DNA from: Acidimicrobiia bacterium
GTDB lineage: Bacteria; Acidobacteriota; Vicinamibacteria; Vicinamibacterales; UBA2999
Assembly: GCA_016871275.1 (NCBI GenBank)
Contig: VFZG01000013.1
Span: 1-64,000, forward strand
Direction: 5' to 3'
Length of the DNA stretch: 64,000 nucleotides
Both the position numbers and the translations under genes were made by a program. How positions within the stretch are numbered: the first letter of the stretch is position 1; every line of letters starts with the position of its first letter. The notes below the pieces were generated by a model that did not search any database, was not told the origin of the DNA, and saw only the letters and a program-made list of their open reading frames with translations. Below, in pieces: positions 13,729-64,000 of this stretch.

Positions 13729-15738
13729 CTAGTTCAGTTGATCCAGCCAGGCTGATAGCAGCGACGTGTGCGGCCCGCGGCCGGCCACGTAGCGCGCTCC
13801 TTCACTGCGGAGCCGCTCGGCGGCGCCGCGATCGCCGCCGACGAACTGCGCGTAAAGCGCGTGGACCAGCAGCCATCGCAATTCGGTGTTCTCCGGATCG
13901 TGGACCAGTGCCGCGTCGAGCATCGCGACCGCCTCGGCGTTGCGCCGTAACGCAATGCGTGTGGCGGCCAGCGTGCGTGCCGCGGCCGGATCACCGATGA
14001 CGTCGTCGGTCTCGGCGATCGCGCTCGCGGCTCGCGTGAAGTCCTTCTGGCGCAGGTAGGCGTCCGCGATCAACCGGTCGACCACCCGTTTCGGTACCGC
14101 GCCGTCGCTGGCGGACGCCCACGCGATCACGGCGTCGGCGTCCCGATTCTGCATCGCGCGCGCGGCGCCGATCAGGAAGTGCACGGGCGCCGGCGGTGTG
14201 TCGGCCTGCATCGCCCACTCGAACTGCCTAATCGCGCCAAGATCGGCGAACGACAGCAACCCCAGGCCGGTCAGAGCGGCACGAACGCCGCGTTCCGGCT
14301 CCGGCACAGCCTCGGCAATCAACAGGTCAGCGAACCGGCCCGCGCGAGCCGATTCGAGAGCTCTACTTAGTGCCGGCGACGGCGTGGCAGGCGCGAGACG
14401 ATCGATCAACGCCGCCACGATTGGAACCCGCAGCGCGTCGGTGATAGTGAAGCGTGTGGCAAGCGGCGGCGCTTCCGCGAGCAGGCTGGTGGCAGTGCCG
14501 ATGACACGGAAGTCGACGGCGCTACTGACGATGCTGCCCGACAGCTTATCTTCCGCGGCGATGCGCAGGCGATAGTCGCCGCGGGGGATTGTGGACAGCG
14601 GCGCCGACAGCGCCGCGATCACCGGCTGACCTTGCCGAATATCGAAATCCGGCGGCATGGTGCTGTCGTTGTAGATGAGCGGCGAGAGCGCCGCCACGGG
14701 TTCCTCGCGTGCGCCCGTCATCCGCACGATGCGAAGCTCGACGCGAATGTCGGGCTTGCCCGTTGCCGACGGCATCGCGTTGACGATCTGGAACGCCACG
14801 GCCAGCCGCTCGTGCGGCGCGAAGACCGCATCGCGCGCCGGCAGAATGTCGGTGACGCCAATCGTGTACGGGTGCGAGCGCTGCTCCAGCGCGGTGTAGG
14901 GCACCGGCCGCACCCCGATTTGATCGGCGATGATCACGCTGCTCAACCCGAACTCGACCTTCGCCGGGGCGAGCTGCAGGCTCTGACGCGCGACGTGAAC
15001 CGTGGCTTTGGCCGCGGTCTGCGACGCATCGGCCCACGCGATGAACAGGGTGTAGCTGCCCGGCCCCGACGTCAGCGCGCGTTGAATCGTCCGGCTGCCG
15101 TCGCCGAATCGGGCCGGTACCCCCACTTCGAAGTCCTCGAACGGAAACCGGTCGGCGGCCAGCGCGCCCTCGCCCGCGAGGGCGGCGCGCCGCTCTTTCT
15201 CCTCTTTTTCGCGCCGTTGCCGCGCCCGGTCGCGCTGCATCGCCATGGTCTGCAGATCCGTCGATCCAACCGACGCTCCGCCGCGCGCGGCGATGGCGCC
15301 GGCGCCCAGCACGGGCATCTCGCCGATCGCCATGCCGCCACGGCGCGGCAGCAGCCGCGGATCTGTGCGCGATCCCTGAAGCCATTCGCGGACCAGCGAC
15401 CGCTCCGCCAACGTCGTGACCCCGGCAGCCGGTGTGGTCGCCAGGCGCACGTAAACCAGGAGTGGCCGCTCAGCGAGCGCGGCGGCGCCGGGGATGACCG
15501 ATACGGCCAGGTAATGCGATCCGTCGGAGGCGCGTAGCACGTGCGTGAGCCAGGTGTGGTCAACCGGCGTCGTCGCGGATCTGGCGTCATCGACGGCCGT
15601 GACCAGCTTCTGCAGCAGCTCGCGCTGCTGGCGGGAGAGCTCCTGCGCCGACGCGGTGGTCGCCAGAGCCGGCGCGCAAAGACATGTCGTGACAATTACT
15701 GTCGGCAGTAGGTGCGCGAGCAAGCTTGTGTGGGCCAT
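13729..15738 (-). CDS. Exported TPR-containing protein of unknown function
   Basis: A 669-residue protein. The first 30 residues form a signal peptide ending ALATTASAQ. The middle (residues about 200-430) looks like beta-rich domains (SGPGSYTLFIAWADASQTAA; PRGDYRLRIAAEDK), and the C-terminal 200 residues form helical TPR-like pairs (NAEAVAMLDAALVHDPENTE). A basic coiled stretch, QRDRARQRREKEEKERR, lies near residue 160. The track entry begins 221 codons earlier, inside the opposite gene; the ATG at 15738 gives a proper signal peptide. No named family is recognised. It is divergent from the DUF5916 gene. Confidence 0.75.
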   Translation of the reverse strand: MAHTSLLAHLLPTVIVTTCLCAPALATTASAQELSRQQRELLQKLVTAVDDARSATTPVDHTWLTHVLRASDGSHYLAVSVIPGAAALAERPLLVYVRLATTPAAGVTTLAERSLVREWLQGSRTDPRLLPRRGGMAIGEMPVLGAGAIAARGGASVGSTDLQTMAMQRDRARQRREKEEKERRAALAGEGALAADRFPFEDFEVGVPARFGDGSRTIQRALTSGPGSYTLFIAWADASQTAAKATVHVARQSLQLAPAKVEFGLSSVIIADQIGVRPVPYTALEQRSHPYTIGVTDILPARDAVFAPHERLAVAFQIVNAMPSATGKPDIRVELRIVRMTGAREEPVAALSPLIYNDSTMPPDFDIRQGQPVIAALSAPLSTIPRGDYRLRIAAEDKLSGSIVSSAVDFRVIGTATSLLAEAPPLATRFTITDALRVPIVAALIDRLAPATPSPALSRALESARAGRFADLLIAEAVPEPERGVRAALTGLGLLSFADLGAIRQFEWAMQADTPPAPVHFLIGAARAMQNRDADAVIAWASASDGAVPKRVVDRLIADAYLRQKDFTRAASAIAETDDVIGDPAAARTLAATRIALRRNAEAVAMLDAALVHDPENTELRWLLVHALYAQFVGGDRGAAERLRSEGARYVAGRGPHTSLLSAWLDQLN

Positions 15739-15767
15739 GCGCGTCCAGTTACACTTTCGAGCGTTTC

Positions 15768-15773
15768 TATCAT
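15768..15773 (+). promoter_or_regulatory. Putative -10 box TATCAT before the DUF5916 gene
   Basis: TATCAT ends 8 nt before the ATG at 15782 and no Shine-Dalgarno sequence is present, suggesting a leaderless transcript. Confidence 0.4.
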
Positions 15774-15781
15774 CCAAACCC

Positions 15782-18082
15782 ATGCACCGCAACATATTCA
15801 CTCGCTGTTGTACCGGCTCATTGTTTCTCTGCTTTCTGAGCCTTCCCTGGCCCTCCACGGTTTCCGCACAAACGCCCCAAGCGCCCACATTGACGGCCGG
15901 TAAGCTCGATTCGTCTGCCGAAGGTCCCGTGATCGACGGCCGGGTCAACGAAGCCGTCTGGGGCACGGTGCCGCCGCACGCGACGTTTACGCAGCAGGAT
16001 CCTGTTGAAGGCGCCCCGGCCTCCGAGAAAACCGAGGTCCGCATCCTCGTCGGCAAGGGCAACGTGTATGTCGGCATCATCGCCTTCGACAGCGACCCGT
16101 CGAAGATCATCGTGTCGCAGTCCAGGCGCGATGCGTCGCTCACCGAGACCGACTCGATCGTGATGGTGCTTGATACCTTCAACGACAGCCAAAACGCATT
16201 TGTTTTCGGCACCAATCCGCTCGGAATCGAGTATGACGGCCAGGTGGCACGCGAAGGGCAGAGCAGCGGCGTGTCCTTCGCCGGTGGCGGCGGCGCCGGC
16301 ACGCAGCGCGGCGTCATCAGCGCCTTCAACCTGAACTGGGATGGCGACTGGATGGTGCGCGCGCAGATCACCGAGCGCGGTTGGGAGGCGGAAATGGCCA
16401 TCCCCCTGAAGACGCTTCGCTATCGGACCGGGCCGAGCGAGACCTGGGGTGTCAATCTGCTGCGCAACATCCGTCACAAGAACGAGCAGGTGTACCTCGC
16501 GCCGATTCCCAGGGGCTTCGACATTTATCGCGTGTCGCTGGCGGCCAAGATGAACGGCCTGGACCTGCCGCCGCGCCGGGACATCAAGTTGCTCCCCTAC
16601 GCGCTCGGCTCGGTGAACAAGGACTTCACCCGCGCCGCCGGCGATCAGGTCGCCAGGAACGGAGATGTCGGCCTTGACCTGAAATGGGGGATTCGCCCCA
16701 ACGTGACGCTCGACGCGACGGTCAACACCGACTTCGCACAAGTTGAGGCAGACGAAGAGCAGGTCAACCTGACACGCTTCGACTTGTTCTTTCCTGAGAA
16801 ACGCCCCTTTTTTCTGGAGAATGCATCCACGTTTCAGTTCGGGCAGCCCCAGAGCATCGATTTGTTTTTTTCACGTCGGGTCGGTCTTTCCGCGGGGGCA
16901 CTGCCGATTGACATTCTTGGCGGCGGCCGGTTGAGCGGCAAGATGGGCGGCTGGAACGTGGGCCTGCTGAACATCCAGGCAGACGACGTCGAGGACGCCA
17001 GAGGCAACACGGTTGGCCCCTCGAACAACTTCAGCGTCGTTCGCCTGCAACGCGAAGTCGGCCGCTCGAGCTACGGAGCGATCTTCGTCAATCGACAGGG
17101 GTTCGGACCGGCGGCGGTGGCGGAAGACTGGAACAGAGCCTTTGGCGTCGACGCGAACATTCTGTTGAATCAGAATTCCCGGCTGTCGGCCTTTCTCGCG
17201 CGCACGGACACGCCGCAGAACCGTCGGACCGGCCCGCGGGGCACGGGCTACTCCGGCCGCGCGTTCTACAACTACACCGACAATGTCTGGCAGGTTTCGG
17301 GCGGATACTCCCAGGTCGACCGGAACTTCAACCCGGAAGTCGGTTTCTTGCCGAGGCGCGGCTATCGACGTCCGGAATTCCGGCTGTACTACCAGCAGCA
17401 GTCGAAGCGCATCGCGTGGGTTCGGCGGGTTGCCCCGCACATCTCGTACAACTCGTTCTGGGATATCGAGACCGGCAAACGGCAGTCGGAGGCCTGGCAC
17501 ATCCATCCGTTCGAGATTCAGCCCAGGCAGGGTGGCCGCTTCGGATGGTTCGTGGACTACACGCGGGACAATCCGACATCGCCCTTCATGGTCTACAACC
17601 GCGACGGGCGGCGTGTCACGATCCCGGTGGGCGAATATTCCTGGCACCAGCATGCGTTCGAGTATTTCCACAACCCGAGCGCGCGCGTCACGGGAACCAT
17701 TCGGGCCCGCGTCGGAAAGTACTATGACGGCGATTTCAACGGCGTCGAGATCACGAGCGATTACCGCATTACGCCGAAGATCACGGCGAGCCTGGGCTGG
17801 ATACGTCAGAACATCGACCTGCCATACGCTTCATTCCACAACGATTTGGTGCCGATCAAGGCGAATATCTCGTTCACCACGCTCATCAACCTGTCATCGC
17901 TGCTGCAGTACAACGGCCAGACGGGGCAGTTCTCATCGAACCTCCGCTTCGCCTGGCTCAACCGCAGCGGCACCGGGCTGTTCGTGGTGTTCAACGACAG
18001 GCGGGACTTGCTGAGTTCCACGGCCGTCGAAGCGCTCGGCCGGTCGTTCGTGGTCAAGTTCACGAGGCTGGTTGATTTCTAG
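15782..18082 (+). CDS. DUF5916 / CBM9-like outer-membrane protein
   Basis: A 766-residue protein with a signal peptide (PWPSTVSAQ) and an N-terminal carbohydrate-binding family 9-like sandwich (VIDGRVNEAVWGTVPPHATF, then VRILVGKGNVYVGIIAFDSD). A DUF5916 beta-barrel region with FPEKRPFFLENASTF follows. The C-terminus ends VKFTRLVDF, an aromatic end typical of outer-membrane barrels. Family members occur in Bacteroidetes and Acidobacteria with unproven function, perhaps as receptors or porins for glycans. The track start at 15545 lies inside the divergent gene; the ATG at 15782 gives the signal peptide and follows a TATCAT box. Its TAG stop is the first unit of an octamer array. Confidence 0.85.
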   Translation: MHRNIFTRCCTGSLFLCFLSLPWPSTVSAQTPQAPTLTAGKLDSSAEGPVIDGRVNEAVWGTVPPHATFTQQDPVEGAPASEKTEVRILVGKGNVYVGIIAFDSDPSKIIVSQSRRDASLTETDSIVMVLDTFNDSQNAFVFGTNPLGIEYDGQVAREGQSSGVSFAGGGGAGTQRGVISAFNLNWDGDWMVRAQITERGWEAEMAIPLKTLRYRTGPSETWGVNLLRNIRHKNEQVYLAPIPRGFDIYRVSLAAKMNGLDLPPRRDIKLLPYALGSVNKDFTRAAGDQVARNGDVGLDLKWGIRPNVTLDATVNTDFAQVEADEEQVNLTRFDLFFPEKRPFFLENASTFQFGQPQSIDLFFSRRVGLSAGALPIDILGGGRLSGKMGGWNVGLLNIQADDVEDARGNTVGPSNNFSVVRLQREVGRSSYGAIFVNRQGFGPAAVAEDWNRAFGVDANILLNQNSRLSAFLARTDTPQNRRTGPRGTGYSGRAFYNYTDNVWQVSGGYSQVDRNFNPEVGFLPRRGYRRPEFRLYYQQQSKRIAWVRRVAPHISYNSFWDIETGKRQSEAWHIHPFEIQPRQGGRFGWFVDYTRDNPTSPFMVYNRDGRRVTIPVGEYSWHQHAFEYFHNPSARVTGTIRARVGKYYDGDFNGVEITSDYRITPKITASLGWIRQNIDLPYASFHNDLVPIKANISFTTLINLSSLLQYNGQTGQFSSNLRFAWLNRSGTGLFVVFNDRRDLLSSTAVEALGRSFVVKFTRLVDF

Positions 18083-18152
18083 GCCAATAGGCCAATAGGC
18101 CAATAGGCAAATAGGCGAATAGGCGAATAGGCCCCTAGGCCCTAGGCTTTAG
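18080..18152. repeat. Octamer tandem array TAGGCCAA
   Basis: About eight 8-bp units (TAGGCCAA three times, then TAGGCAAA, TAGGCGAA twice, TAGGCCCC and shorter ends). The first unit supplies the TAG stop codon of the DUF5916 gene. Because the period is not a multiple of three, the array puts TAG in all three frames. Confidence 0.85.
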
Positions 18153-34764: not shown

Positions 34765-35696
34765 TGGCCGACACTCCCGAACCACCGGGCGACCAGGCCG
34801 TACCCCTGGCGCCGGAACCCGAAGAGGTCTTTGAATCGCAGCTTGAGGCCATCAGCATCAAGCTGCACACGTTCGAAGGCCCGCTCGACCTGCTCGTGCA
34901 TCTGATCAAGAAGAATCAGATGAACGTCTACGACATCCAGATCGCGGTCATCACCAGGCAGTATCTCGAATACCTGAACCTGATGCAGGAGCTCAACCTC
35001 GACGTGGCCAGCGAGTTCCTGGTGATGGCGGCCACGCTGATTCACCTCAAAAGCAAGATGCTGCTGCCGCGGCCGGAGACGGCCGCCGGCGATCCGCTGG
35101 ACGAGGCCGATCCGCGCGACGCGCTGGTGCAACGGCTGCTCGAGCACCAGAAGTTCAAGGCCGCGGCCGAGCTGCTGCACGACAAGGAGACGCTGCGCGC
35201 CGCGCAGTGGGGCCGGCCGGATTCGCGCATCGAGGAAATTGCCGGCGAGGACTCAGAGCCCGAGGTCGAGGTCGACCTGTTCAGCCTGCTGTCGGCGTTC
35301 AAGCAGGTGCTGGAGCGGGCCCGCGAGCGGCCGCCGGTGCTGCTGCCGCCCGAACAGATCCCCATCGAGACGCGCATCGACCAACTGCTGGAGCGGCTGT
35401 CGGAAACCGAAGCGTGCGGCTTCGAAGACCTGTTCGACGGCGACTACACGCGCGCGGACATGATTGTCACCTTCCTGGCGATGCTGGAGATGATCCGCCT
35501 GAAGCTGATTCGCGTGTTTCAGCAGGGCGGCCAGGGCGCGATCCGTGTTTACAAGCGCGCCCGGCCGGCCGATGCGCCGCACCCGATTCACGATCCGGAA
35601 GATGAGTACAAGGCGCACCATCAGAAGCAGGGATCGGGGATCGGGCATCAGGGACCAGGGAGCGGGGATCAGGGGTCAGAGGACGAGAAGCCATGA
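34764..35696 (+). CDS. scpA: Segregation and condensation protein A
   Basis: The kleisin subunit of the SMC-ScpAB condensin, 310 residues. Its N-terminal SMC-binding helix region is FEGPLDLLVHLIKKNQMNVY (near residue 35), then EFLVMAATLIHLKSKMLLPR. The winged-helix C-terminal part ends near residue 280 (VTFLAMLEMIRLKLIRVFQQ). The final 25 residues (QGSGIGHQGPGSGDQGSEDE) are a low-complexity tail written by eight GGGGATC-type heptamers. The start overlaps trpS (TGATG), and the stop overlaps the scpB start (ATGA). Confidence 0.94.
   Translation: MADTPEPPGDQAVPLAPEPEEVFESQLEAISIKLHTFEGPLDLLVHLIKKNQMNVYDIQIAVITRQYLEYLNLMQELNLDVASEFLVMAATLIHLKSKMLLPRPETAAGDPLDEADPRDALVQRLLEHQKFKAAAELLHDKETLRAAQWGRPDSRIEEIAGEDSEPEVEVDLFSLLSAFKQVLERARERPPVLLPPEQIPIETRIDQLLERLSETEACGFEDLFDGDYTRADMIVTFLAMLEMIRLKLIRVFQQGGQGAIRVYKRARPADAPHPIHDPEDEYKAHHQKQGSGIGHQGPGSGDQGSEDEKP
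35629..35684. repeat. Heptamer array inside scpA (AGGGATC family)
   Basis: Eight consecutive 7-bp units: AGGGATC, GGGGATC, GGGCATC, AGGGACC, AGGGAGC, GGGGATC, AGGGGTC, AGAGGAC. They encode the ScpA C-terminal tail and end 8 bp before the scpB start. Confidence 0.8.
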
Positions 35697-36379
35697 GCGA
35701 CGAGCCGATTCATCTACCCGAACCCGCCAAACCCGTGCCACCGGCCGAACCCGCCGAACAGGCCAAGCCTCGCATGGAGCTGGCGCAGCTGAAGGCGGTC
35801 ATCGAGGCCCTGATGTTCGCGTCACCTGACCCGATCACCCCGCGCCTGCTGAACAGGTTGCTCAACGACGAGCCCAAGGAAGATGTCAAGGCGGCGCTCG
35901 ACGCCCTGCGCGCCGACTACGAGCAGCGTGGCGGCCTGCACGTCGCTGAAGTGGCCGGCGGGTTCCAAATCACCACGCGCCCCGAGTACCACGAGTGGGT
36001 GAGACGCCTGTTCCACGAGCGTTCGGCGAACAAGCTCTCGGTGGCGGCGCTCGAAACGCTGTCGGTGATCGCCTACAAACAGCCGGTGACCGCCGCGGAA
36101 ATCGGCGAGATCCGCAGCGTCAACACGTCGGGTGTGCTGTCGACGCTGCTCGAGCGCCACCTCATCAAGATCGTCGGCCGCAAGAACGTCATCGGCCGCC
36201 CGTTCCTCTACGGCACGACCAAGGAATTCCTGATTCGCTTCGGGCTGAACGACCTCGGCGACCTGCCGAAGATCGAAGACATGGCGCAGCAGCTTGGCTT
36301 CGAGCCGCCGCCGATCCTGATGGAACAGCCGGTGCCGGAGGACATGCTGCCGCTCGACGAAGGCGAGCAATCGAATTGA
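35693..36379 (+). CDS. scpB: Segregation and condensation protein B
   Basis: A 228-residue winged-helix partner of ScpA in the SMC condensin. Tandem winged helices include LKAVIEALMFASPDPITPRL (near residue 30) and ETLSVIAYKQPVTAAEIGEI with RSVNTSGVLSTLLERHLIKI (near 120-160). KNVIGRPFLYGTTKEFLIRF is diagnostic. Coupled to scpA by ATGA. The TGA stop (36377-36379) is the first three bases of palindromic element A. Confidence 0.95.
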   Translation: MSDEPIHLPEPAKPVPPAEPAEQAKPRMELAQLKAVIEALMFASPDPITPRLLNRLLNDEPKEDVKAALDALRADYEQRGGLHVAEVAGGFQITTRPEYHEWVRRLFHERSANKLSVAALETLSVIAYKQPVTAAEIGEIRSVNTSGVLSTLLERHLIKIVGRKNVIGRPFLYGTTKEFLIRFGLNDLGDLPKIEDMAQQLGFEPPPILMEQPVPEDMLPLDEGEQSN

Positions 36380-39644: not shown

Positions 39645-41051
39645 ATGAATAGCGACGAGTTCCGCGAAGCCGGCCACCGGCTGATTGACTGGATCGCCGA
39701 TTACCGGGCGACGATTGAAACCCGCCCGGTGATGGCGCCATCGAAGCCGGGCGAGATCAGAGCCCTCCTTCCCCAATCACCTCCGCAGCGACCCGAGTCG
39801 TTTGACGCGATCATCGGCGATCTCGATCGCGTGATCCTGCCCGGCATTACCACGTGGCAGCATCCGCGTTTCTTCGGTTACTTCCCGTCCGGGGGATCGC
39901 TTGCGAGCGTGCTGGGCGACTACGTCAGCTCCGCACTGGGCGTCGTGGGACTGGCGTGGCAGTCGAGTCCGGCGCTGACCGAGGTTGAGGAAGTCACCAC
40001 CGACTGGTTGCGCCAGATGCTCGGCTTGTCCGGGGCGTGGAGCGGCGTGATCAGCGACACCGCCTCGACCAGTTCGCTGGTGGCGCTGATGTGCGCGCGC
40101 GAGCGGACCACCAATTACGGATTGGCGCGCGGCGGCTTGCAGGAAGCGGCCCAGCCCCTGGTGGTCTACACGTCGGCGCACAGCCACAGCTCGGTCGAGA
40201 AGGCGGCGCTGCTGGCAGGGTTCGGCAAGGGCAACGTGCGGATCGTGCCGCATGACGCCGCAAACGCCATGCGGCCCGACGCGCTCGAGCAGATGGTGAA
40301 AGACGACATTGCAACTGGCCGCAGGCCCTGCGCGGTCGTGGCGACCACGGGCACCACCACGTCCACGGCCCTGGACCCGCTGGCGGCGATTGCGCGCGTC
40401 GCGCAGGCGCACGGCCTCTGGCTCCACGTCGATGCGGCCATGGCCGGCTCGGCGATGATCCTGCCCGAATGCCGCTGGATGTGGGACGGCGTCGAACGGG
40501 CTGATTCGCTGATCGTCAATCCGCACAAGTGGCTCGGCGCGGTGTTCGATTGCACGGTCTACTACGTTCGCGACCCGGAGCACCTCGTTCGCGTCATGTC
40601 GACGACACCGAGCTACCTCCAGACCGCCGCCGACGGCCAGGTGAAGAATTATCGTGACTGGGGCCTGCCGCTCGGGCGACGCTTCCGCGCGCTGAAGCTG
40701 TGGTTCCTGGTCCGCGACCAGGGTGTGGAGGGGTTGCAGGCCCGCTTGCGCCGCGACATCGAGAATGCGAAGTGGCTCGAGCGCCAGATCTCAGCGACGG
40801 CCAATTGGCGTGTGCTCGCACCGGTGCCGCTGCAGACAGTGTGTGTGCGTCACGAGCCGCCAGGTGTGAGTGGCGAAGCGCTCGACAGGCACACGCTCGA
40901 ATGGGTGGCACGGCTGAACCAGTCCGGTGACGCCTACCTGACGCCGGCGATCCTGGATGGCAGGTGGATGGTGCGCGTGTCGATCGGCGCCGAACTGACG
41001 CAACGCGCACATGTGGAGCAGCTGTGGAGATTGATGAATGAAAACGTTTGA
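39645..41051 (+). CDS. PLP-dependent group II decarboxylase (aromatic amino acid type)
   Basis: A 468-residue pyridoxal-phosphate decarboxylase of the aromatic-L-amino-acid/tyrosine decarboxylase family. The N-terminal RLIDWIADYRATIETRPVMA and HPRFFGYFPSGGSLASVLGD are typical. The PLP Lys lies in SLIVNPHKWLGAVFDC near residue 293, and the cofactor-binding His and Asp in TSAHSHSSVEKA and WLHVDAAMAGSA. The substrate (Tyr, Phe, Trp, Dopa or a related amino acid) cannot be decided. It overlaps the following dehydrogenase by 14 nt. Confidence 0.9.
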   Translation: MNSDEFREAGHRLIDWIADYRATIETRPVMAPSKPGEIRALLPQSPPQRPESFDAIIGDLDRVILPGITTWQHPRFFGYFPSGGSLASVLGDYVSSALGVVGLAWQSSPALTEVEEVTTDWLRQMLGLSGAWSGVISDTASTSSLVALMCARERTTNYGLARGGLQEAAQPLVVYTSAHSHSSVEKAALLAGFGKGNVRIVPHDAANAMRPDALEQMVKDDIATGRRPCAVVATTGTTTSTALDPLAAIARVAQAHGLWLHVDAAMAGSAMILPECRWMWDGVERADSLIVNPHKWLGAVFDCTVYYVRDPEHLVRVMSTTPSYLQTAADGQVKNYRDWGLPLGRRFRALKLWFLVRDQGVEGLQARLRRDIENAKWLERQISATANWRVLAPVPLQTVCVRHEPPGVSGEALDRHTLEWVARLNQSGDAYLTPAILDGRWMVRVSIGAELTQRAHVEQLWRLMNENV

Positions 41052-42414
41052 CGTCGTCAATCCGGCCACGTCGGCCGTCCTCGATCGCGCGCCGGATGCG
41101 TCGGCCGAGGAGGCGCGGCGGGCTCTTGAAACATCCGTCGCCGCGTTCGCGCTGTGGAAAGCGAAAACGCCCTTCGAGCGATCGGCCATCCTGCGCAAGT
41201 GGTACGAGTTGATCCTCCAGGACGAGAGCACGATCGCGACGATGATGACGCAGGAGATGGGGAAGCCCATTTCCGAGTCGCGCGGCGAGGTCAAATACGC
41301 CGCGGCGTTTGTCGAGTGGTTCGCTGAAGAAGCCAAGCGCGCCTACGGTGACATTGTGCCCAGTCACGCCAATCACAAGCGCCTGTTGGCGATGCGGCAA
41401 CCGGTGGGGCCGGTGTACGCGGTCACCCCGTGGAATTTCCCGGCGGCGATGGTGACACGTAAGGTCGCGCCGGCCCTGGCGGCGGGATGCACCGTGGTGC
41501 TGAAACCGGCGGAGCAGTCGCCGCTGACCGCGATCCGTCTCGAAGAGCTGTGGGTGAAGGCCGGCGGGCCGTCCCAGGTGTTCCAGGTGCTCACGACGTC
41601 GGATCCAGCGGCCGTGTCGGAGGTCTTCTTCGCCGACCCGCGTGTACGGAAGTTGACGTTCACCGGCAGCACCGACGTCGGCATCACGCTCTATGAAAAG
41701 GCCGCGAGAACCCTCAAGCGCGTCTCGCTCGAACTTGGCGGCCACGCGCCGTTCATCATTTGCGAGGATGCGAACGTCCCGGCGGCGGTGCAGCAGGTGA
41801 TGGCGTCAAAGTTCCGCAATGCCGGGCAGACATGTGTCTGCGCCAATCGCATCTACGTCCACGACCGGATCCGGGCCCCGTTCGCCGAGGCCATGGCCGA
41901 TGGCGTCCGCACGCTCCGCGTCGGCGATCCCATGAGCGATCACACCCAGGTCGGCCCGCTGGTGGACAGGCAAGGGGTCGACAAAGTGGCGGCGCACGTC
42001 GAGGATGCGCTGAGCAGGGGCGCGACCGCGCTGGTGGGCGGCCACAGGCGTGAGGGCCTGTATTTCGACCCCACGCTGCTGGTTGGCGTGACGAGCGGCA
42101 TGCGCATCCTCCACGAGGAAACCTTCGGGCCGGTGGCACCGATCGTGGGTTTCACCGACGAGGCCGAGATCATCCGCGCGGCGAACAATACACCGTACGG
42201 CCTTGCGGCCTACGTGTGGACCCGCGACCTCGGCCGGGCATTTCGCATGGCCGAGCAGTTGGACTACGGAATCGTCGGCGTGAACGACGGTTTGCCGGCT
42301 GCGCCGCATGCGCCGTTTGGCGGCGTCAAGTTTTCAGGGATTGGCAGGGAAGGCGGACCGTGGGGGATGGACGAGTACCTCGACATCAAATACGTGTCGA
42401 TCGGGTTGCCGTAG
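41038..42414 (+). CDS. NAD(P)-dependent succinate-semialdehyde dehydrogenase family protein
   Basis: A 458-residue aldehyde dehydrogenase close to GabD in form. Active-site Cys is in FRNAGQTCVCANRIYVHDR, and the general base Glu in VSLELGGHAPFI. The cofactor-binding region is TPWNFPAAMVTRKVAPALAA, and the C-terminus has PFGGVKFSGIGREGG. Coupled to the upstream decarboxylase by a 14-nt overlap, it may oxidise the aldehyde formed after an amine is deaminated. A matching amine oxidase or transaminase is not in the window. The TAG stop is followed within 6 bp by an octamer array. Confidence 0.92.
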   Translation: MKTFDVVNPATSAVLDRAPDASAEEARRALETSVAAFALWKAKTPFERSAILRKWYELILQDESTIATMMTQEMGKPISESRGEVKYAAAFVEWFAEEAKRAYGDIVPSHANHKRLLAMRQPVGPVYAVTPWNFPAAMVTRKVAPALAAGCTVVLKPAEQSPLTAIRLEELWVKAGGPSQVFQVLTTSDPAAVSEVFFADPRVRKLTFTGSTDVGITLYEKAARTLKRVSLELGGHAPFIICEDANVPAAVQQVMASKFRNAGQTCVCANRIYVHDRIRAPFAEAMADGVRTLRVGDPMSDHTQVGPLVDRQGVDKVAAHVEDALSRGATALVGGHRREGLYFDPTLLVGVTSGMRILHEETFGPVAPIVGFTDEAEIIRAANNTPYGLAAYVWTRDLGRAFRMAEQLDYGIVGVNDGLPAAPHAPFGGVKFSGIGREGGPWGMDEYLDIKYVSIGLP

Positions 42415-42419
42415 GGGTA

Positions 42420-42506
42420 CGGGCTAGCAGGCTAGCGGGCTAGCAGGCTAGCAGGCTAGCAGGCTAGCGGGTTGCATTAGCCCGTAGCCCGTAGCCCGTA
42501 GCCCGA
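42420..42506. repeat. Octamer array CAGGCTAG plus inverted heptamer array TAGCCCG
   Basis: Six 8-bp units (CGGGCTAG or CAGGCTAG) at 42420-42467, then four 7-bp TAGCCCG units at about 42478-42506, nearly reverse complements. Together they form an imperfect inverted structure between convergent genes and may serve as a bidirectional terminator. Confidence 0.8.
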
Positions 42507-42523
42507 TAACCCATCTTTATGAC

Positions 42524-43144
42524 CTATTCCTCATCGTCGAAGTCATCCTTCGAGGCGGGGTCGAGCTCCCAGCGGTGACGATCGCGCTCCGTGATCTCCG
42601 CGCCACCCTGCAGCTCTTCGTCATCGTCGTACTCAACGCCCAGCGCGCGGCCGATGTCGTCCACCACGTCCTGATCCGGTGTCGGGTTGTCGCCGCCGGG
42701 GGCCTCGTCGCCAATGGCTTCGGCGGCTTCCCAATCGGCGTCGACGTCTCCGGCGGTGAGGGCCGGACCCGCGCTGGTCACCTTCGAGAGCTTGTCCCTC
42801 AGTTCGGCGCGCCCCGACCTGGCGGCCGACGCACCGCGATCCATGGCGAGGCTCGAGGGGATGCCGTGGATGTCGGCCACGGTCTTCCGCGGACGGTCCA
42901 GATTGGGCTTCTTGGCCACGGTTTTCGCCGGCGCCCGTTTCGCCGAAGCTCTGGCTGAGGCGGACGCCTTTTTTGCCATGCCTTTCCTGGGAGCCGCCTT
43001 CTTCTTCTTTGGAGCGGCCTTCCTGGCTGGCTTGGAGGCCTTCTTGGGCGCTGCCTTCTTCGTCGGCCCCTTCTTCACGGGCTTTGTGGCCGGCTTACGG
43101 GCGGCCTTCTTCTTGGCCTTCTGTGCGGGCTTCTTGCGGGCCAT
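42524..43144 (-). CDS. Lysine-rich histone-H1-like protein with DUF6335-type C-terminus
   Basis: A 206-residue two-part protein. Residues 1-75 are a Lys/Ala/Pro-rich tail (KKAAPKKASKPARKAAPKKK) like bacterial histone H1-type proteins and likely bind nucleic acid. Residues about 110-205 are acidic and match the DUF6335 pattern: TAGDVDADWEAAEAIGDEAP, then NPTPDQDVVDDIGRALGVEY and RDRHRWELDPASKDDF. The ATG at 43144 is preferred because GGAGG lies 9 nt upstream; the ATG at 43153 abuts that site. The function is unknown. It is divergent from rpsA. Confidence 0.75.
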   Translation of the reverse strand: MARKKPAQKAKKKAARKPATKPVKKGPTKKAAPKKASKPARKAAPKKKKAAPRKGMAKKASASARASAKRAPAKTVAKKPNLDRPRKTVADIHGIPSSLAMDRGASAARSGRAELRDKLSKVTSAGPALTAGDVDADWEAAEAIGDEAPGGDNPTPDQDVVDDIGRALGVEYDDDEELQGGAEITERDRHRWELDPASKDDFDDEE

Positions 43145-43175
43145 GACTTCCATCCTCCGGAGCGGGCGTCGCCGG

Positions 43176-43205
43176 TTGACAGTTCGACGCTAAGTAACGT
43201 AATCT
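43176..43205 (+). promoter_or_regulatory. rpsA promoter
   Basis: TTGACA (43176-43181), 18-bp spacer, TAATCT (43200-43205). A transcript would carry an untranslated leader of about 85 nt, which could be the site of S1 self-control. Confidence 0.6.
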
Positions 43206-62592: not shown

Positions 62593-63183
62593 GTGGTTGA
62601 CGCTGGAATCGGCCGCCTGCTCATCTCGAGCCTGCATCAAGGCATTGCCGACATTTCCCCAAACAGGCTTGAGTTCTACGAAAACTGGTTGAGCCCTACC
62701 GGCATGCGCGACGGGCGCATCGGGCTGGCGCCGCTTGGCGCCGTGCTCAGCTTCCTGCATCGCGAAGAGCCGCCGGCCAACGAACAGATCGTGGCGCGCG
62801 CTGGCCGGTATGCCGCCGATTGGATGTTCGCCGGTGTGTCGACCTTCCGGCGCTCCTACGTGCGCCACCTGCCGATGGGCCTGCGGTCGCGCGCGGCGCT
62901 GGGCCTCGGCCGGAAGCTGATTCTCACGACCGTGCGCCAATCGAAGGTCGGGTCGAGGCTGAGCGGCAGGTCCGCGGCCATCGACATCAGCTCGGCGTTG
63001 TTCGACCAGTTGCGGGCTCCGGCCACCATCCCGATGCGCGCGTTCTATGCCTCCGCCGTCGAGCGCCTGCTCCAGCACTGCGCGGTCGATGCCGAGGTGA
63101 GCGTCACCACTGATCCGCTTGGCGCGTGGAGCCTGGCGATCACCGTCCGCGGGCCGCTCGAGGTGCTGGAAAGTGAGAAGTGA
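62593..63183 (+). CDS. Hypothetical protein with V4R-like length, no family recognised
   Basis: A 196-residue protein of unknown function. It has an N-terminal LISSLHQGIADISPNRLEFY, a central basic helix FRRSYVRHLPMGLRSRAALG then LGRKLILTTV, and a C-terminal half resembling a small alpha/beta sensor domain (RAFYASAVERLLQHCAVDAE). The size and the final strand layout recall 4-vinyl-reductase-type ligand-binding domains, but there is no clear motif. It is possibly co-transcribed with argS (19-bp gap, GTG start). Its stop TGA (63181-63183) lies in an AGTGAGA heptamer array, which also encodes the last residues ESEK. Confidence 0.6.
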   Translation: MVDAGIGRLLISSLHQGIADISPNRLEFYENWLSPTGMRDGRIGLAPLGAVLSFLHREEPPANEQIVARAGRYAADWMFAGVSTFRRSYVRHLPMGLRSRAALGLGRKLILTTVRQSKVGSRLSGRSAAIDISSALFDQLRAPATIPMRAFYASAVERLLQHCAVDAEVSVTTDPLGAWSLAITVRGPLEVLESEK

Positions 63184-63263
63184 GAGGCAGAAAGTGAGAA
63201 GTGAGAGGTGAGAAGTCGGAAGAGGAGCATGCTTCTCACCTGCTACTTCTCACTTCTCACTTC
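63174..63263. repeat. Inverted heptamer arrays AGTGAGA / TTCTCAC
   Basis: The left array has 7-bp units AGTGAGA, AGTGAGA, GGCAGAA, AGTGAGA, AGTGAGA, GGTGAGA. The right array has TTCTCAC, CTGCTAC, TTCTCAC, TTCTCAC. The inner pair AGGTGAGAAG (63206-63215) and CTTCTCACCT (63232-63241) forms a perfect 10-bp stem with a 16-nt loop that holds the ribosome-binding site and ATG of the next gene. Confidence 0.85.
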
Positions 63264-64000
63264 GCCGGCCTTCGCCCAGCTCCTCGTCATTCCGTTCGAC
63301 AATCCCACCCAGGAGCCGCGGCTGACCTGGATGCGCGAAGGGGCCGCCATTCTGCTGAGCGAGATGCTGGCATCGGCCGGCGAGTTGACGATCGAGCGCG
63401 AGGAACGTTTGCGCGCGTTCGAGCGCTTGCAGTTGCCCGCCACCGCGACACTCAGCCGCGCATCGACGATTCGGGTCGGGCAGGCGGTCGCCGCCTCGCT
63501 GATCCTGAGCGGCAGCGTGACCATGACGGGCGACCAACTGGTGGCTCGCGCCCGTGGCGTCCGGCTCGATACCGGCCGATTGCTGCCCGAGTTCGAGGCG
63601 AGCGGGCCGCTGACCGACGTGTTCCTGGTGTTCGGCCGCCTGGCGCAGCTGGTGCGCGGAGCGCCCGAGGCCGCGCTGCCGGCCACGCCGGACCGGCTGC
63701 CTGATGCGCCGCAGGTGTTCGAGCTCTATGTCAAGGGCCTGGTCGCGGAGACGCCGTCGACCGCGCTGGCGTTTCTCGAGCAGGCGTTGAGCGTGGCGCC
63801 GCAGTTCGATCGCGTGCGGCTGGCCATCTGGGATTTGCACTCCGAGGCGTCCGAGCACCAGCGCGCGCTCGAGAGCATCACCGCCGTCGGTCCTGACAGC
63901 CGCTACCGGCGCGCCGCGCAGTTTCGCCGCGCGCTCTCGCTGATACACCTGAAGCGTTTTGACGATGCGCTCGCGACGCTGGGCGCGATGCAGCGGGAAG
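63229..64000 (+). CDS. Exported TolB/FlgO-like and TPR-like protein, N-terminal part
   Basis: This frame is open to the window edge (257 codons) and is absent from the ORF track. It has a signal peptide MLLTCYFSLLTSPAFAQ, most of which is encoded by TTCTCAC-type heptamers. A domain like TolB-N/FlgO follows (LLVIPFDNPTQEPRLTWMRE, GAAILLSEMLASAGELTIER, VGQAVAASLILSGSVTM), usual in proteins that rank or assemble envelope components. From about residue 160 helical pairs look like TPRs (FELYVKGLVAETPSTALAFL; DDALATLGAMQRE). GGAAGAGGAG stands just before the ATG. Start and ribosome site lie in the loop of a predicted hairpin. Confidence 0.8.
   Translation, partial: MLLTCYFSLLTSPAFAQLLVIPFDNPTQEPRLTWMREGAAILLSEMLASAGELTIEREERLRAFERLQLPATATLSRASTIRVGQAVAASLILSGSVTMTGDQLVARARGVRLDTGRLLPEFEASGPLTDVFLVFGRLAQLVRGAPEAALPATPDRLPDAPQVFELYVKGLVAETPSTALAFLEQALSVAPQFDRVRLAIWDLHSEASEHQRALESITAVGPDSRYRRAAQFRRALSLIHLKRFDDALATLGAMQRE

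Follow-up and report, generated by a model that had tools for sequence, protein, structure and literature searches.

Tandem heptamer arrays are dispersed at the gene junctions of several bacteria, for example GGGAATC in Xanthomonas and GGGGA(T/C)T in Nostoc, Xanthomonas carrying 70-75 inverted pairs per genome and unit variants within arrays (PMC4692102). TAACTGA heptamers of the Beggiatoaceae lie near start codons and in some cases overlap the end of the upstream open reading frame (ORF) (PMC4679880), and the Yersinia palindromic element RU-2/YPAL forms part of one predicted signal peptide, that of YPO1552 (Delihas 2007, PMC2759123). Here we describe an element at 63171-63263 of a 64,000-nucleotide stretch (the window; contig VFZG01000013.1, assembly GCA_016871275.1), where a direct array of AAGTGAG units meets an inverted array of CTCACTT units at the junction of two co-directional, tightly packed genes, the second encoding a TPR protein. 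From sequence comparison we judge it probable, at roughly three chances in four, that this array became part of both genes and replaced the n- and h-regions of the TPR protein's signal peptide, and, jointly with this, that different heptamers have replaced signal peptides recurrently at many junctions in the genus.

The initial annotation of this DNA had placed the start of the last gene within an inverted heptamer array that also contains the stop of the gene before it, and both statements are confirmed by the sequence (Table 1). The TGA of the upstream ORF (63181-63183) lies inside the array, and orthologues of the upstream gene, for which a Pfam or NCBIfam family was not found, terminate in different residues at the same junction. 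The 14-mer AGTGAGAAGTGAGA is present in three copies in the window, all within the junction element (expectation 0.00 from 100 shuffles), and a perfect 10-bp stem pairs 63206-63215 exactly with 63232-63241, for which the shuffle expectation in the window is likewise 0.00. The loop so formed (63216-63231) contains an ATG and the Shine-Dalgarno-like sequence GGAAGAGG. Folding of the element as RNA gave a minimum free energy of -63.7 kcal/mol (z = -5.4), with probabilities of being unpaired of 0.48 for GGAAGAGG, 0.87 for ATG 63229 and 0.03 for a second candidate start codon, GTG 63208. The earlier description of a ribosome-binding site and ATG displayed in the loop of a perfect stem is thus exact as to the stem and the ATG, but the Shine-Dalgarno-like sequence is only partly free in the fold.

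Both GTG 63208 and ATG 63229 are in frame with the downstream ORF. Read from the GTG, the ORF encodes VRSRKRSMLLTCYFSLLTSPAFAQ..., laid out like a Sec signal peptide: an n-region VRSRKRS, the stretch MLLTCYFSLLTS, and PAFA/Q with an AxA-type cleavage site (the slash marks cleavage). Translation from the ATG, which the initial annotation had chosen, would leave a signal peptide of 16 residues without any basic residue; that ATG is present, but the GTG in the 5' arm, with its basic n-region, had been overlooked. We favour GTG 63208 as the start codon because, in six of the seven other array-encoded genes of the same genome (all but L003), the only possible start is the GTG within an array's GTGAGA, which makes M-R the first two residues. 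The array supplies the n- and h-regions, and the c-region PAFA/Q is ordinary DNA; the proposal that repeat DNA encodes most of the signal peptide therefore holds for the first two regions and not for the third, while its broader form, in which the repeat provides both signal peptide and translation start, is supported by the sequence layout and by the comparison of orthologues. We infer from this layout both that array-encoded peptides work as signal peptides and which start codon is used.

Table 1. Features of the junction element, array-encoded genes and arrays of related genomes. Positions refer to the window unless a genome and contig are named; G000 is the genome of the window.
Feature	Source	Position	Strand	Remarks
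Upstream gene	Window	62593..63183	+	196-aa ORF directly 3' of argS-like gene; C-terminal SEK and TGA stop are array DNA
Purine arm	Window	63171..63219	+	AAGTGAG units at 63171, 63178, 63192, 63199; degenerate AAGTCGG at 63213
5' half of 10-bp stem, AGGTGAGAAG	Window	63206..63215	+	Sequence and stem search
GTG start codon, favoured	Window	63208..63210	+	23-residue signal peptide, basic n-region; buried in predicted stem
Inferred signal peptide VRSRKRSMLLTCYFSLLTSPAFA	Window	63208..63276	+	Cleavage before Q (63277); n-/h-/c-region layout; orthologues align from about there
Downstream gene, TPR protein	Window	63208..64000	+	Conserved start LLVIPFDNPTQEPR; continues beyond window end
Shine-Dalgarno-like GGAAGAGG	Window	63218..63225	+	Before ATG 63229, in loop; sequence; partly unpaired in fold
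ATG start codon, alternative	Window	63229..63231	+	In loop; choice of the initial annotation; sequence, fold
Pyrimidine arm CTTCTCACCTGCTACTTCTCACTTCTCACTT	Window	63232..63263	+	CTCACTT units at 63249, 63256; degenerate copies back to 63232; encodes hydrophobic core LLTCYFSLLTS
L003	G000			TonB-dependent receptor (Pfam)
L006	G000			Gene without Pfam family
L013	G000			Glutamine cyclotransferase (Pfam)
L018	G000			Window TPR gene
L158	G000			PQQ dehydrogenase (Pfam)
L159	G000	G000:C1:156722	-	Prepilin-type protein (Pfam N_methyl); leader MRSRRG/FTFVELL largely array-encoded; start is GTG of AAGTGAG array
L174	G000			Weak BNR similarity
L175	G000			Weak NHL similarity
L118 (with L140)	Congeners			Cytochrome c7 protein
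L120, L122, L155, L156	Congeners			Further array-encoded export-signal genes
L126	Congeners			ThuA protein
L127	Congeners			Orthologue of window gene
L134	Congeners			UnbV/ASPIC protein; lipobox-like LGC
L142 with L181	Congeners			TPR proteins
L144	Congeners			BamA-like POTRA protein
L192	Congeners			PBP transglycosylase; membrane anchor made by array
NHL gene	G000			AAGTGAG-type units
NHL gene	G001, G002			GGCAGAA-type units
NHL gene	G007			AAAAGNA-type units
NHL gene	G036			CTTCTCA/CTTCCCG mixture
NHL gene	G031			TTCTTGG/TTCTTCG-type units
Shared junction pairs	G000/congeners			L006/L156, L018/L127, L022/L123, L024/L125, L025/L146, L175/L155; AAGTGAG vs GGCA(A/G)AA

In all same-genus orthologues of the TPR gene that were examined the N-terminus resembles a signal peptide, and in most of them (G001-G005 and G008) ordinary DNA encodes it; in G007 a different heptamer hairpin, GGCAAAA/TTTTGCC, occupies the same place and encodes MRKAKGKMQKAKPIFFCLLPFAFCLSLPVTPASAQ. 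Strong lag-7 periodicity before the mature protein was found in two of 30 orthologues from the order, those of G000 and G007, with different units, and lags of 5, 6, 8, 9 and 10 reach 17/21 in none of the 30. Because every examined orthologue has a signal-peptide-like N-terminus, export appears to be ancestral and the array to have replaced the n- and h-regions; judged from these sequences, the TPR protein has been exported all along, and different heptamers now form these regions in two species. The initial annotation had suggested recent recruitment of a repeat as an export signal: the array is indeed young, being confined to two of the 30 orthologues, but the export signal was not newly gained. 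In the comparison of orthologues that it had proposed, the same signal peptide without repeats was not seen, the signal peptides of the orthologues being different.

In the mechanism we propose, a heptamer array, one of several dozen at junctions of this genome, would have become part of both flanking genes, its purine arm providing the upstream stop codon, the GTG start and the basic n-region, and its pyrimidine arm the hydrophobic signal-peptide core of the TPR protein. The array would have replaced the n- and h-regions of an older, ordinary signal peptide, whose cleavage region in ordinary DNA would have stayed in place. Alternatively, the array might be an ordinary intergenic repeat with an accidentally open frame, the TPR protein starting further downstream and lacking this signal peptide. 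Most heptamer arrays lie between genes (PMC4692102), and cytosolic genes of the same genome (PurA, AccD and others) start after an array through which the frame is sometimes open. However, there is no further start codon between the array and the conserved LLVIPFDNP, the orthologues all have their signal-peptide-like N-terminus at this place, a cleavage-like AFA/Q comes immediately after the array, and other array genes fall in families whose products have to be exported, making an accidental frame improbable.

Replacement of this kind would not be limited to the TPR gene. Arrays of the G000 genome were sampled by pattern search and regional inspection, giving a set of loci and no complete census, and at least eight array-encoded export signals were identified among them; the congeners G001, G002 and G007 contain at least 11 further array-encoded genes, orthologous pairs being counted once (Table 1). 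The genes include families known as exported, namely TonB receptor, glutamine cyclotransferase, cytochrome c7, POTRA, PQQ dehydrogenase and prepilin N_methyl. The prepilin leader is a second kind of targeting signal built from the repeat. Considering the G000 arrays with a co-directional gene just downstream, sorted by hand, the N-terminus is array-encoded in 8/10 exported and 0/8 other genes (Fisher p = 0.001; p = 0.005 if a HisS-like gene possibly starting at an array GTG is counted). That gene, on the minus strand at L162 (G000:C5:37479), appears to draw its GTG start from the last array unit.

The best comparative case is an NHL-repeat gene, whose signal peptide is array-encoded in six species, from four or more unit types, and ordinary in most other genera as well as in G004 and G008. 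In the glutamine cyclotransferase and PQQ dehydrogenase genes, the array is found only in G000, and the signal peptides of the congeners are ordinary and mutually different.

These comparisons also bear on translational control, which the initial annotation had named as a possibility, and on the idea that the hairpin primarily serves such control or coupling, so that ribosomes ending at 63183 would open the outer stem and allow the next gene to start. The strong fold (z = -5.4), the ATG open in the loop and a stop-to-start spacing of 25-48 nt are consistent with this. However, in fold computations the inner stem does not open when the upstream stop region is kept unpaired, most orthologues lack the hairpin, and in other array genes the start may precede the purine arm, fall within it or follow it, four of these genes (L003, L006, L013 and L159) being one-armed and without a hairpin. 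Since start positions vary relative to the arms and several array starts lack a second arm, hairpin control, though possible, is unsupported, and we regard it as unlikely to be the primary role of the element.

The capacity of such repeats to encode export signals probably follows from their composition and unit length. Because seven is not divisible by three, all frames of a heptamer array give one and the same seven-residue repeat: GGCAAAA reads AKGKRQK and its complement LLPFAFC, and TCTCACT reads FSLLTSH. The purine arm thus yields basic residues and its reverse complement F, L, P, S, A, C and T; a hairpin that begins with purines does so on the opposite strand as well and therefore reads basic-then-hydrophobic on both strands. 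AAGTGAG repeats further contain TGA plus an in-frame GTG six bases on, so that they can close one gene and open the next. Strands with a start codon, then a basic and finally a hydrophobic stretch numbered 9/74 for the AAGTGAG type and 11/118 for the GGCAAAA type, where random window segments gave expectations of 1.1 and 1.7, and shuffled elements 0.4 and 4.3, respectively.

Several points weigh against our interpretation. The favoured GTG is buried in the predicted stem; the division into exported and other genes was made by hand from Pfam, gene context and sequence; the array loci are a sample rather than a complete count, from a genome assembled in 124 contigs; and much of the effect for the GGCAAAA type is one of composition, because shuffled elements yield 4.3 against the 11 strands observed. 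A further possibility is that the array acts as a phase-variation switch, in which gain or loss of units, seven not being a multiple of three, would shift the frame and turn export or expression off. Computed on paper, a change of +1 or -2 units in the pyrimidine arm leaves no in-frame ATG or GTG, and one of -1 or +2 units brings in another GTG with a much less basic N-terminus (VRGEKSEEEHASH...). Nevertheless, the units are imperfect, which would slow slippage, and most such arrays lie outside coding frames, so that we consider a switch very unlikely.

The array family extends well beyond the window. The G000 genome contains 26 exact AGTGAGAAGTGAGA 14-mers (control 0), and a pattern of three AAGNNRG units matches it 62 times; the reversed-pattern control is uninformative in GGCAGAA-rich genomes, whose units fit the reversed pattern too. 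The G000 loci inspected are all at gene junctions, and many are hairpins of purine arm, loop and pyrimidine arm with differing loops. Across the order, AGTGAGA-type peptide matches were found in 25/60 genomes and GCAAAAG-type matches in 35/60, the latter with none in G000 and more than 100 frame-matches in each of G001, G002 and G007. Scanning of AGTGAGA and GCAAAAG loci in other genera gave few clear gene contexts apart from the NHL gene in G036, and a tblastn search of the GGCAAAA-type array peptide against plasmids returned no match, although the low-complexity filter may mask such matches.

At six junctions arrays are present in both G000 and a congener but consist of different heptamers (38 G000 loci against 60 loci of three congeners). 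At most 0.65 shared pairs would be expected even if every junction were conserved, assuming about 40 arrays among about 3,700 junctions as estimated from genome size (Poisson p = 6e-5; p = 0.002 at twice that expectation). Either inherited arrays with a rewritten unit or strongly preferred junctions would explain the six. We tentatively suggest, at somewhat short of even odds, that junction arrays are a standing and fast-changing source of signal peptides, their positions inherited and their unit rewritten genome-wide, in which case the affected signal peptides would be rewritten together with the repeats. Repeated hits on permissive hot-spot junctions, without inheritance of the arrays, come close to an even chance as an account of position conservation alone: arrays are found at gene junctions only, so the places where they are tolerated are limited, but the excess of shared junctions persists even at the doubled expectation.

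In one G000 array (L002, G000:C1:212369) two unit types are adjacent, ATTAGGA/ACTAGGA beside AGTGAGA, as if one were replacing the other. The window holds three further arrays. At 42420-42505 a GGCTAGC(A/G) octamer array precedes an inverted array of TAGCCCG heptamers where two genes converge (ORFs 41038-42411, plus strand, and 42527-43189, minus strand); at 18080-18147 a TAGGCCAA octamer array adjoins the end of ORF 15515-18079, the stop codon being the first array TAG; and at 35628-35684 a degenerate CAGGGAT-type heptamer array lies just 5' of ATG 35684, near the 5' end of frame 35606-36376.

Signal peptides diverge fast, which makes their origin and turnover difficult to follow; in the present case the source DNA can be recognised by its repetitiveness, and the relatives offer a before-and-after view at the same gene. 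The general rule would be that, if the unit length of an inverted purine/pyrimidine repeat is not divisible by three, every frame of both strands encodes a basic and then a hydrophobic stretch; this would provide a simple, recurrent route by which junction repeats may replace export signals, with different repeats in different species. For annotators this is a caution: an open frame through an array is at times a genuine N-terminus, in exported genes, and at times not, in cytosolic ones.

Literature searches on heptameric repeats in Acidobacteria, on repeats in Vicinamibacter and on bacterial signal sequences derived from repeats gave no hits. Heptamer arrays in themselves are already known, and the tandem 7-nt unit, many genomic copies, junction location and frequent inverted pairing of the Xanthomonas and Nostoc arrays all recur here. 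However, the unit sequences differ, the Xanthomonas and Nostoc arrays are discussed as G-quadruplex elements whereas the AAGTGAG and GGCAAAA units have no GGG tracts, and the paper describing them reports no signal peptide role (PMC4692102). The TAACTGA repeats are similar in lying near starts, some over the end of an upstream ORF (PMC4679880), but they are direct repeats 5' of starts, proposed as regulator sites and not coding for N-termini, as the arrays here do. With RU-2/YPAL there is the further likeness that homologues in other genera carry unrelated signal sequences (PMC2759123), and with the Rickettsia palindromic elements (RPE, PMC2229807) that palindromic repeats have joined proteins in frame. 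RU-2/YPAL is, however, a single case, a 168-bp miniature inverted-repeat transposable element of defined sequence, whereas the present arrays are simple heptamers in many genes and of several units, the unit at one and the same gene differing between species; RPE lie within protein genes and are apparently just tolerated, whereas here the repeat gives the N-terminal targeting region and the start codon. Unlike RU-2 and RPE, the arrays do not form a conserved element with terminal inverted repeats of defined length: only the unit is shared, and loops, lengths and flanks differ between loci. What is new, in comparison with all of these systems, is the recurrence, the origin in simple heptamer arrays, the use of different units at the same gene, and a coding logic that depends on neither frame nor strand.
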